DNA from: Deltaproteobacteria bacterium
GTDB taxonomy: Bacteria > Bdellovibrionota_F > JAHFAK01
Length of the DNA stretch: 19,181 nt
Direction of reading: 5' to 3'
Assembly: GCA_023250585.1 (NCBI GenBank)
Contig: JAHFAK010000007.1
Location: 1-19,181, forward strand
The notes beneath the pieces were generated by a model that saw only the letters and a program-made list of their open reading frames with translations, made no database searches and was not told the DNA's origin. Within the stretch, counting starts at the first letter, position 1. The number at the start of each line of letters is the position of its first letter. Below are positions 6,597 to 14,661 of this stretch, one piece after another. The position numbers and the translations under genes are program-made.

Positions 6597-6612
6597 GTGT
6601 CAATGGTAACAG

Positions 6613-6755
6613 CTCAGTTAATGGGGGAGTTTAGGGTGTAGGCATGTTCTCAAAAAGTATTTATATCGACGTCGCTTCCATAATAGTATTAAGAACAGGA
6701 AAGCGCGCTCGATAGAAATTCTTTTTGAGAACATGCCTACACCCTCATAACTGAG
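6613..6755. repeat. Palindromic element family B, copy 1
   Basis: Perfect 25-bp inverted arms (6633-6657 and 6721-6745) enclose a 51-bp core (6664-6714), bounded by TATCGA and TCGATA. A further 8-bp outer stem (CTCAGTTA 6613-6620 with TAACTGAG 6748-6755) continues the hairpin across an asymmetric loop. The core matches copy 2 at 48 of 51 positions on the opposite strand, but the arm sequence is largely different. It lies between the divergent trhO and aminopeptidase genes and would be a long cruciform or RNA hairpin. Confidence 0.85.
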
Positions 6756-6781
6756 GGATTACGTGTCAATATTGGAAGTAC

Positions 6782-9571: not shown

Positions 9572-9601
9572 TAGACTAAGTTAGTTAGGGTAGACTATAC
9601 T
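9572..9601 (+). promoter_or_regulatory. Candidate promoter for the DtxR/MntR-family gene
   Basis: TAGACT (9572-9577, 4/6), 18 bases, then TATACT (9596-9601, 5/6). The start point near 9608 would fall inside repeat element A copy 1, giving a leader of about 140 bases dominated by its hairpin. A partial TTAGTTAGGG sequence lies between the boxes. Confidence 0.4.
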
Positions 9602-9602
9602 G

Positions 9603-9727
9603 ATACTAAGTTGCATTCAAACGCTAACTGCGTTGGCTTCGTCGTCGGCTCCTCAACGTACTCATTACGTACGTTTGCGTCGCCTTCTCCTTGCCGCCTT
9701 GTTATCATTTTGAATGCAACTTAGTAT
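9603..9727. repeat. Palindromic element family A, copy 1 (full length)
   Basis: A 125-bp element with perfect 19-bp inverted arms (ATACTAAGTTGCATTCAAA at 9603-9621, its complement at 9709-9727). An inner perfect stem (AACGTAC 9655-9661 with GTACGTT 9669-9675) sits in a core that reads, on the minus strand, as a purine-rich GAYAACAAGGCGGCAAGGAG-like half and a GACGAAGCCAACGCAGTTAG half. It lies between the promoter and ribosome site of the DtxR/MntR-family gene, in inverted orientation to copy 2. Confidence 0.85.
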
Positions 9728-9746
9728 GAATATATAAGGAGATGCA

Positions 9747-10196
9747 ATGATCGAGCATATTACCTCATCTCAAGAAGATTATTTGGAAGCAATTCTTTTA
9801 ATTCAAAAAGAAAAAAAAGTAGTGCGTGTAAAAGATATTGCGGAGTATTTTATCGTTAAGGGTTCAACCGTTAATGAAACACTCAATAATTTGAAAAAGC
9901 GTGGCTATATTATTCAGGAAAAATACGGTTATATCGAATTAACTCAAAAGGGCACGCGAATTGCTCGAAATGTATATCGTAAACATACGCTTTTAACAAA
10001 ATTTATACAAAATATTCTCGGTGTTTCTGCAAAGACAGCTGAAGATGATGCATGCAAGATAGAACATCATTTAAGTAAAGAAACACTCGATAATATCCTT
10101 CATTTTATTGAATTTACTGATCGAGAATTAAAACGAAAATACGATATCAAAAAAAACTTTCACGAATATATTCATACTAAGTTGGATTCAAAATGA
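9747..10196 (+). CDS. DtxR/MntR-family metal-dependent transcriptional repressor
   Basis: A 149-residue repressor of the short MntR type, without the SH3-like third domain. The N-terminal winged helix (about 5-70) includes SSQEDYLEAI, VRVKDIAEYF and the wing EKYGYIELTQKG. The dimerisation helices contain ARNVYRKH and DDACKIEHHLS. Probable metal ligands by alignment to B. subtilis MntR are Asp11, Glu14, His80, Cys103, Glu106 and His107. Cys103 replaces the MntR Glu99 and matches DtxR Cys102, while Asp11 is MntR-like, so Mn versus Fe selectivity is ambiguous. A DtxR-box-like palindrome in the upstream intergenic region suggests control of the divergent outer-membrane protein and possibly itself. 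A strong AAGGAGAT site precedes the ATG. The last six residues (TKLDSK) and the stop lie in repeat element A copy 2. Confidence 0.9.
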   Translation: MIEHITSSQEDYLEAILLIQKEKKVVRVKDIAEYFIVKGSTVNETLNNLKKRGYIIQEKYGYIELTQKGTRIARNVYRKHTLLTKFIQNILGVSAKTAEDDACKIEHHLSKETLDNILHFIEFTDRELKRKYDIKKNFHEYIHTKLDSK

Positions 10197-10293
10197 TAAC
10201 AAGGCGGCAAGGAGGAGGCGACGCAGACGTATATTTTAATACGTTGAGGAGCTTCAGACGCAGCCAACGAAGTTAGCGTTTGAATCCAACTTA
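10174..10293. repeat. Palindromic element family A, copy 2
   Basis: Perfect 15-bp inner arms (TAAGTTGGATTCAAA at 10178-10192, complement at 10279-10293) surround a core matching copy 1. Similarity to copy 1 on the left extends to about 10174. The inner stem is ACGTAT...ATACGT. Relative to copy 1 the outer arm has C-G replaced by G-C, and the inner stem has C-G replaced by T-A, so pairing is kept. The left arm is also the 3' end of the regulator coding sequence. It abuts element C copy 2. Confidence 0.85.
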
Positions 10294-13028: not shown

Positions 13029-14096
13029 TTGGAATTTAAAGTAATTAAAACTTCAAATAAATCTAGAGCTCGGTTAGGTAAACTCATACTCAATTCAGGC
13101 ATTGAAATTGAAACTCCCGTTTTTATGCCGGTTGGAACATTGGCAACCGTAAAAGCGCTCACTCCTGACATGCTTCACCAAATTGGAGTAAAGATTATTT
13201 TATGTAATTCATACCATCTGTATTTGCGGCCTGGAATGTCGGTTTTAGAAAAATTCGAAAGTGTTCATAGTTTTATGAATTGGTCAGGCGCTATTCTAAC
13301 CGATAGCGGGGGATTTCAGATTTTTTCTCTTAAAGCCCTGCGAACGCTGGAAAATGACGGCGTTGTTTTCAACTCCCACATCGATGGATCAAAACATATG
13401 CTTACTCCAGAAAAAGTGATCGATATACAAAATATCATTGGATCTGATATTAAAATGGTACTCGATGATTGTGTTTCGTATCCTGCTTCACGAGAAGCAG
13501 TTGAAGCTGCTCTTAAAAGAACAATTACCTGGGCACGTCGATCTAAAGATTACTATACCAAAACTCAAAGCAACGGAAGCCTTTTTAGTATTGTCCAAGG
13601 CGGAATGCATAAAGACCTTCGCGAATCATGCGCTTTGCAACTTATCAATCTTGATTTTGATGGATATGCATTAGGAGGCCTTTCCGTAGGGGAAGAAAAT
13701 GAATTGATGTATGATATTGTTCATCACACCACTGATTTTCTTCCTGAACATAAACCTCGCTATTTGATGGGAGTTGGTACTCCTACTGATTTAGAGCAAT
13801 GTATTCATAGAGGCATTGACATGTTTGATTGTGTTCTGCCGACACGGAATGCTCGTAATGGCATGCTCTTTACTTCAGAAGGTTCGATTAATATCAAGCG
13901 CAAAGAATTTGATGTTGATACTCAACCAATCGAGACAGGGTGTACCTGTTATACGTGTACACATTTTTCACGAGCCTATCTTCGACACCTTTTTAAATCA
14001 AAAGAAATACTTGCATCTCTACTCAATTCCATACATAATGTGCATTTCTATTTTCGGAGTGTTGAAAAAATTAAAGATGAAATAAAAAGTGAATAA
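13029..14096 (+). CDS. tgt: tRNA-guanine transglycosylase, bacterial type (Tgt)
   Basis: A 355-residue enzyme exchanging G34 for preQ1 in GUN-anticodon tRNAs, the queuosine pathway entry at tRNA level. The start is TTG 13029: the product begins EFKVIKTSNKSRARLGKL as expected, and no in-frame ATG is available. Motifs: TPVFMPVGT (29-37), the catalytic TDSGGFQ with Asp92, MVLDDC, IVQGGMH, YALGGLSVGE, and the nucleophile loop FDCVLPTRNARNG with Asp267. The zinc site is Cys305-X-Cys307-X2-Cys310 with His336 in LNSIHN. PTRNARNG is the bacterial form, as opposed to the archaeal enzyme. It lies in the widespread tgt-yajC-secD-secF order, but here element B copy 2 separates tgt from yajC. All catalytic residues are present. 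Confidence 0.96.
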   Translation: MEFKVIKTSNKSRARLGKLILNSGIEIETPVFMPVGTLATVKALTPDMLHQIGVKIILCNSYHLYLRPGMSVLEKFESVHSFMNWSGAILTDSGGFQIFSLKALRTLENDGVVFNSHIDGSKHMLTPEKVIDIQNIIGSDIKMVLDDCVSYPASREAVEAALKRTITWARRSKDYYTKTQSNGSLFSIVQGGMHKDLRESCALQLINLDFDGYALGGLSVGEENELMYDIVHHTTDFLPEHKPRYLMGVGTPTDLEQCIHRGIDMFDCVLPTRNARNGMLFTSEGSINIKRKEFDVDTQPIETGCTCYTCTHFSRAYLRHLFKSKEILASLLNSIHNVHFYFRSVEKIKDEIKSE

Positions 14097-14115
14097 AGTT
14101 ACTTGTAAGTATTAA

Positions 14116-14240
14116 GTAGAGAGGAGAGAGCATATGTTCTTTTTTAATGGTATATCGATCGCGCTTTCCTGTTCTTAAAATTATTATGGAAGCGACGTCG
14201 ATATACCATTAAAAAAGAACATATGCTCTCTCCTCTCTAC
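14116..14240. repeat. Palindromic element family B, copy 2
   Basis: Perfect 43-bp inverted arms (14116-14158 and 14198-14240) enclose a 39-base loop. Arm tips plus loop form the 51-bp core (14153-14203) that matches copy 1 at 48/51 positions in opposite orientation. Outside the core the arm (GTAGAGAGGAGAGAGCATAT...) shows only weak similarity to that of copy 1. It sits between tgt (stop 14096) and yajC (ATG 14267). A transcript would fold into a very stable hairpin, so it may attenuate read-through. Confidence 0.9.
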
Positions 14241-14266
14241 ATGTAGATTATAATTAGGAGGTTTTT

Positions 14267-14587
14267 ATGTTTATAGAAGACGCATTCGCAATGGCCTCAC
14301 CATCAGCTGGACAAGGAGGAGCAAGTGGTTTTATTAATGCATTTCTTCCTTTGATCTTAATGTTTGTGGTATTTTATTTTATTCTTATTCGCCCTCAGCA
14401 AAAGAAAGCAAAAAAACATCAGGAATTTTTAACTCAGCTTACTAAAGGAGATTATGTGGTGACCAGTAGCGGGATGTATGGTCGTGTACATGGTGTAACT
14501 GATGCGGTAGTAATTTTAGAAGTTGGTGATAACGTTAAAGTAAAAATAGCAAAACCGTATATCGCAGGACGTGTTGAAGAAAAATGA
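14267..14587 (+). CDS. yajC: Preprotein translocase subunit YajC
   Basis: A 106-residue inner-membrane protein of the SecDF-YajC accessory complex. One transmembrane helix (about 22-41, FLPLILMFVVFYFILI) is followed by the family hallmark RPQQKKAKKHQEFL (42-55) and a small cytosolic beta domain GDYVVTSSGMYGRVHGV...VILEVGDNVKVKIAK. A strong AGGAGG site precedes the ATG. It stands directly upstream of secD and secF, separated from secD by repeat element A copy 3, which begins on the last base of its stop codon. Complete and normal in length. Confidence 0.95.
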   Translation: MFIEDAFAMASPSAGQGGASGFINAFLPLILMFVVFYFILIRPQQKKAKKHQEFLTQLTKGDYVVTSSGMYGRVHGVTDAVVILEVGDNVKVKIAKPYIAGRVEEK

Positions 14588-14661
14588 TACTCAATTATAT
14601 TCAAATGATAACAAGTCGATGACGAAGCCAACGAAGTTAGTGTTTGAATACAATTGAGTAT
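14587..14661. repeat. Palindromic element family A, copy 3 (internally deleted)
   Basis: A 75-bp derivative. The 19-base arms (14587-14605 and 14643-14661) pair at 18 of 19 positions. Core ends GATAACAAG and GACGAAGCCAACGAAGTTAG are kept, but about 50 bp including the inner hairpin are missing relative to copies 1 and 2. The outer arm ATACTCAATT differs from ATACTAAGTT in the other copies, with matching changes on the opposite arm. It fills most of the yajC-secD gap. Confidence 0.82.

Follow-up and report, generated by a model that had tools for sequence, protein, structure and literature searches.

The hairpin between tgt and yajC

We analysed a stretch of 19,181 nucleotides (the window) from contig JAHFAK010000007.1 of a Deltaproteobacteria bacterium, in which a hairpin at 14116-14240 occupies the gap separating tgt (13029-14096) from yajC (14267-14587), with secD and secF further downstream. 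When the single strand was folded, positions 14110-14245 formed one long hairpin with a z score of -15 against dinucleotide shuffles, and no match to any Rfam RNA family was found within the window. The hairpin, referred to here as class I, consists of the following features:

14116-14158, plus strand: left arm of the class I hairpin, 43 bp including TATCGA, perfect complement of 14198-14240
14153-14203, plus strand: conserved core of 51 bp, with about 43 bp between its TATC/GATA edges and 70 genomic copies
14198-14240, plus strand: right arm of the class I hairpin, perfect complement of 14116-14158

The core holds an inner stem (CGCTT.CC/GGAAGCG) with an 18-nt loop. An earlier note on this DNA had reported that the core recurs reverse-complemented at 6664-6714 with 48/51 identity, that TATCGA/TCGATA bounds it at both sites, and that the arms are perfectly complementary, over 43 bp at 14116-14240 and over 25 bp at 6633-6657/6721-6745. 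Direct reading of the sequence confirmed all of this. The second copy belongs to a class II element with the following layout:

6597-6604, no strand: 8-bp target site duplication GTGTCAAT, left copy, read directly
6605-6631, plus strand: right-type end (RE) of the class II element, GGTAACAGCTCAGTTAATGGGGGAGTT
6633-6667, plus strand: first arm of the class II hairpin, outer 25 bp perfect, 2 mismatches nearer the core
6664-6714, minus strand: conserved core in the opposite orientation, 48/51 identical to 14153-14203
6711-6745, plus strand: second arm of the class II hairpin
6742-6762, minus strand: left-type end (LE) of the class II element, GTAATCCCTCAGTTATGAGGG
6763-6770, no strand: 8-bp target site duplication GTGTCAAT, right copy, read directly

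The arms of this copy (6605-6762) thus span about 35 bp with 2 mismatches. Its GTGTCAAT duplication at 6597-6604/6763-6770 was missed by the automated family test because of a 1-nt shift.

A family of about 70 hairpin repeats in one genome

A 19-mer taken from the core has 54 exact and about 75 near matches in the source genome (2.24 Mb in 164 contigs, 97% complete), where the control has 1. From the near matches we took 70 copies that were well resolved and usable for analysis. The feature at 14116-14240 is therefore a member of a MITE-like family of palindromic hairpin repeats with about 70 copies. Inverted arms of about 35 bp surround the core in nearly all 70 copies and are perfect or near-perfect in most, with zero mismatches over 35 bp in 45 of them. 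In class I, pairing ends abruptly 35-37 bp from the core. The arm consensus is approximately GAGGAGTGCATATGTTCTTTTTTTATTTTC in class I and AGGGAGTAGGCATGTTCTCAAAAAGTATTTC in class II, each followed by TATC, and the two classes can be aligned with each other. Regarding the description of the arms as locus-specific in the earlier note, they do differ from copy to copy; they are not private in origin, since they can be aligned across copies and go back to a common ancestor. The note had left room for such divergent common ancestry, and the arms of all copies indeed share it. The genome search with the core that it had proposed found arms complementary within copies, as anticipated, and arms related, not unrelated, between copies.

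Class II hairpins sit within a larger element with the ends GTAATCCCTCAGTTAT (LE) and GTAACAGCTCAGTTAATGGGGGAGT (RE), which start with GTAAT or GTAAC (GTAAT...ATTAC), so that GTAA-type sequence is present on both sides. An 8-bp target duplication with at most 1 mismatch was detected in at least 23 of the 37 class II copies, compared with 0.6 by shuffling, and these copies thus have the short non-coding body, the inverted ends and the target duplication of a MITE. For class I copies, 14116-14240 included, direct repeats at the arm edges were at chance level, without the target duplication of a MITE. Class II copies were moved by ordinary transposition, and class I copies, including the one at 14116-14240, look older or moved in a different way.

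No copy of the family was found in 40 other genomes searched, including one other genome of the same phylum, nor in the viral contigs or plasmids searched, and an exact 40-mer pattern had no copy in a wider collection of genome contigs. The family had no RNA-family match in the window and no sequence match in the collections searched. The tgt orthologues in the named genomes came from distant relatives only (at most about 55% identical) and so provided no empty sites.

We also considered whether the core had entered a pre-existing palindrome and rejected it, as the only class-typical arms lacking a core were truncated remnants, one on contig C115 (L241) and one on C123 (L242). Both have lost an arm along with some or all of the core, as expected for deletion at hairpins. 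In one further class I copy (L238, C44:6429-6519) the core has diverged and still forms a hairpin, the inner stem now being GTGGTT/AACCAC and fully paired. Another class I copy (L240, near position 11640 of C44) contains a run of N, probably an assembly gap at the hairpin.

Arms are homogenised within copies

The two arms of a copy had a mean edit distance of 1.9% in class I and, counting the chimeras, 3.5% in class II; between copies the values were 32.5% and 20.4%, respectively. Among the arms analysed, the nearest arm was the arm's own partner for 125 of 140. Arms that are more alike within than between repeats, here with differences of about 1-3% versus 20-33%, are what characterises homogenised inverted repeats.

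The stems covary. At positions 13-34 of class I, most positions show 3-4 types of Watson-Crick pair, with 0 G-U among 660 pairs; this count covers 30 of the 33 class I copies, as a small indel puts the remaining three out of register. Over about 2170 pairs within the arms of the family, only 10 G-U pairs were seen on the plus strand and 4 on the minus strand. Pairs have therefore changed directly from one Watson-Crick pair to another, with G-U intermediates almost absent, and runs of T, 4-8 in length, are mirrored across both arms in 30 of the 33 class I copies. The scarcity of G-U and the mirrored T-runs argue for copying at the DNA level and not for stepwise compensation under selection on RNA.

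Five class II copies (L053, L067, L069, L075 and L077) look chimeric, with clearly mismatched arms from two lineages. As L053 has a perfect target duplication yet five arm mismatches, correction is not instantaneous. Together the five copies suggest exchange between copies, followed by a correction that needs time. As a side observation, 10 of the 12 arm mismatches in class I fall within 12 bp of the core, a clustering that class II does not show (6 of 13).

Target duplications as a clock

The two copies of a target duplication offer a clock against which the arms can be compared. Of the class II copies, 24 have a duplication that can be recognised and no more than 2 arm mismatches; in these, mismatches amounted to 15/192 in the duplications versus 6/840 in the arms (Fisher P ~1e-7). 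The difference was weaker when mismatched copies were kept (27 usable, P = 0.0016) than with chimeras excluded. Since arm mismatches are about ten-fold rarer than duplication mismatches in the non-chimeric copies, the arms have been corrected after insertion.

Divergence between copies, in the 23 class II copies with clear ends, was 0.173 for LE, 0.189 for RE, 0.192 for the arms and 0.092 for the core. The arms diverge at the rate of the element ends, as expected from unbiased conversion and not from purifying selection on pairing. Hypermutable arms, which we had also considered, are ruled out by the same equality of arm and end divergence. With the duplications giving about 0.08 for 2 mu T, and with arm mismatches at a level near 0.01, a rough estimate would put correction at about 200 mu per site, or about 200 times the per-base substitution rate.

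Inversion and probable constraint of the core

Relative to LE and RE, the core of class II copies points both ways, in a ratio of 19:16. On a weakly supported tree of the ends and arms of 23 class II copies, its orientation changes 10 times (8-10 in bootstrap), no fewer than with shuffled labels, so flipping must be frequent. The ratio and the 10 changes represent the spacer inversion looked for in repeats homogenised by template switching.

Conversion tracts enter the core in both directions, with three cores of the form GACGTCGC..GCGACGTC and one of the form GAGCGCGC..GCGCGCTC. They also cross the LE/RE boundary, as in L050 and L031, which have the shorter LE-type interior on both sides and keep the RE-type terminus on one. 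The asymmetric edges of the core were symmetrised in just 4 of 70 copies, which calls for selection or for something that keeps most tracts out of the core.

The core changes at a rate two to three times lower than the rest of the element. Over the 70 copies its positions are near-invariant, those beside the stem included, apart from three that vary freely (positions 3, 23 and 25) and an indel near positions 11-15. From this conservation pattern we infer functional constraint, and the core is probably recognised by something. It is conceivable, and in our opinion unlikely, that a dedicated enzyme recognises the core and opens or re-copies the hairpin. Such a reading is compatible with a core that is conserved in both classes, in either orientation and independently of the arm sequence; if true, the element would be a self-repairing palindrome, with correction and flipping as its active property and not as a by-product of ordinary replication errors.

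How the arms stay complementary

We think it quite likely that the arms are rewritten in place by template switching during replication. Each copy is one long DNA hairpin made of an arm of about 35 bp, the conserved core and the complementary arm. The arms mutate at the rate of the rest of the element; differences between the two arms of a copy would be erased in situ, and one arm would serve as the template for rewriting its partner. Template switching at the hairpin (quasi-palindrome correction) is the likeliest route at the enzyme level, as far as we infer, and an intermolecular version of the same event would invert the spacer, which may account for the two orientations of the core with respect to the ends. 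Template switching is reported to homogenise the arms of inverted repeats and to invert their spacers (PMC8604942), and also to keep stems perfect (PMC8794818). Its published signature combines arm homogenisation with spacer inversion, so one process can explain both features; the spacer inversions in PMC8604942 comprise 2-5 substitutions and are much shorter than the 43-nt core here. That the arms are homogenised within each locus, one of two possibilities raised by the earlier note, thus finds support in the mismatches, the covariation, the rates and the core flips.

In-place homogenisation of DNA could also proceed if a cruciform were extruded and then resolved or subjected to mismatch repair. 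As the enzyme-level route, this competes closely with template switching, since it predicts both arm homogenisation and core flips and the arms are long and perfect; a 43-nt centre with a loop of about 18 nt generally disfavours spontaneous extrusion, however, and we hold this route to be unlikely. Were the arms perfected only at transposition, through a hairpin intermediate in which the second arm is synthesised from the first, new copies would be born perfect while differing from each other. The same non-chimeric copies, however, have far fewer mismatches in their arms than in their duplications, L053 combines an intact duplication with mismatched arms, and the 8-bp duplications imply that class II was moved by a conventional transposase, all of which makes perfection at transposition alone very unlikely. 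The other proposal of the earlier note, that insertion makes an inverted copy of the flanking target and so gives each locus private arms, could draw on outer arm positions 24-28, which share little information among class I copies. It is contradicted by the shared arm consensus and the fixed arm length of about 35-37 bp, and by class II, in which the arms lie inside the 8-bp duplications, with further element sequence in between. Given that the duplications flank the whole element, arms and ends alike, and that length and ancestry are common to all arms, the arms do not derive from the target, and we give this proposal practically no chance.

A different view would be that a transcribed hairpin matters and that compensatory mutations are selected to keep a perfect dsRNA stem. 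A conserved apical core on a variable stem does resemble functional RNA hairpins, and class I copies are packed tightly between genes, most of them about 8-60 bp from a gene and 21 of 31 between tandem genes. Relative to these tandem genes, however, the orientation of the class I core is random (about 10:10); G-U pairs are almost absent on either strand, the arms evolve no more slowly than the element ends, and no Rfam match was found in the window, so that we consider RNA selection quite unlikely as the source of the pairing. It is also unlikely that the perfect arms are an assembly artefact, as collapsible bubbles at usual k-mer sizes would need arms longer than the roughly 36 bp present here and the mismatched chimeric copies survive.

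Comparison with known systems

ERIC and NEMIS/Correia are bacterial families of stem-loop MITEs. They can be likened to the present family in being non-coding, intergenic and 100-170 bp long, with dozens of copies that each form one long hairpin. In the family of 14116-14240 the centre is better conserved than the ends, and the stems covary within each copy; the stems of ERIC or NEMIS may behave alike. An IS66-type footprint consists of ends beginning with GTAA and an 8-bp target duplication. By this definition, the GTAAT/GTAAC ends and the 8-bp duplications of class II agree with an IS66-derived element; an IS66-type transposase (PF03050) had no match at E <= 0.001 in the element's own 97%-complete genome.

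Chloroplast genomes have small inversions in hairpin loops, in which, as here, the loop between inverted arms flips repeatedly; unlike here, no dispersed repeat family is involved. In quasi-palindrome correction with spacer inversion (PMC8604942, PMC7202029, PMC8794818), arms are likewise made identical, several bases at once, and spacers invert. Known cases of such correction are mutational hotspots or short repeats at scattered sites, whereas here it would act on about 70 parallel loci of one family, with 35-bp arms, a 43-bp spacer and a target-duplication clock. The observation is real and strongly supported, and is best explained by a mutational process that is already known, at work in a family of hairpin repeats and on a natural scale that is unusually large; the system as such is not of a new kind.

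Stems that stay perfect while their sequence changes are commonly taken as evidence of selected RNA structure. With about 70 replicates and an internal clock, the present family indicates that arm copying at the DNA level can yield the same covariation without slowing substitution, which is a caution for covariation-based RNA discovery in repeats. Its scale and built-in controls make it useful as a natural assay for template switching.

Other palindromic repeats

The GTAA-type ends of class II also flank unrelated hairpins of the ATCCCGCGGTCAAGCCGCGGGAT type (L192, L196, L199 and L224), as though different palindromes were carried as payload by a single mobile frame. In addition, an element of about 70 bp near position 2312 of C70 (L212) has LE and RE ends and no hairpin core, with a perfect 9-bp duplication, GTCAAATTT. 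A second family of palindromic repeats, of the TTTGAATGCAACTTAGTAT type, is present in the window at 9596-9735, 10166-10293 and 14587-14661; its arms are about 85-95% complementary, and it is apparently less well homogenised than the family of 14116-14240.
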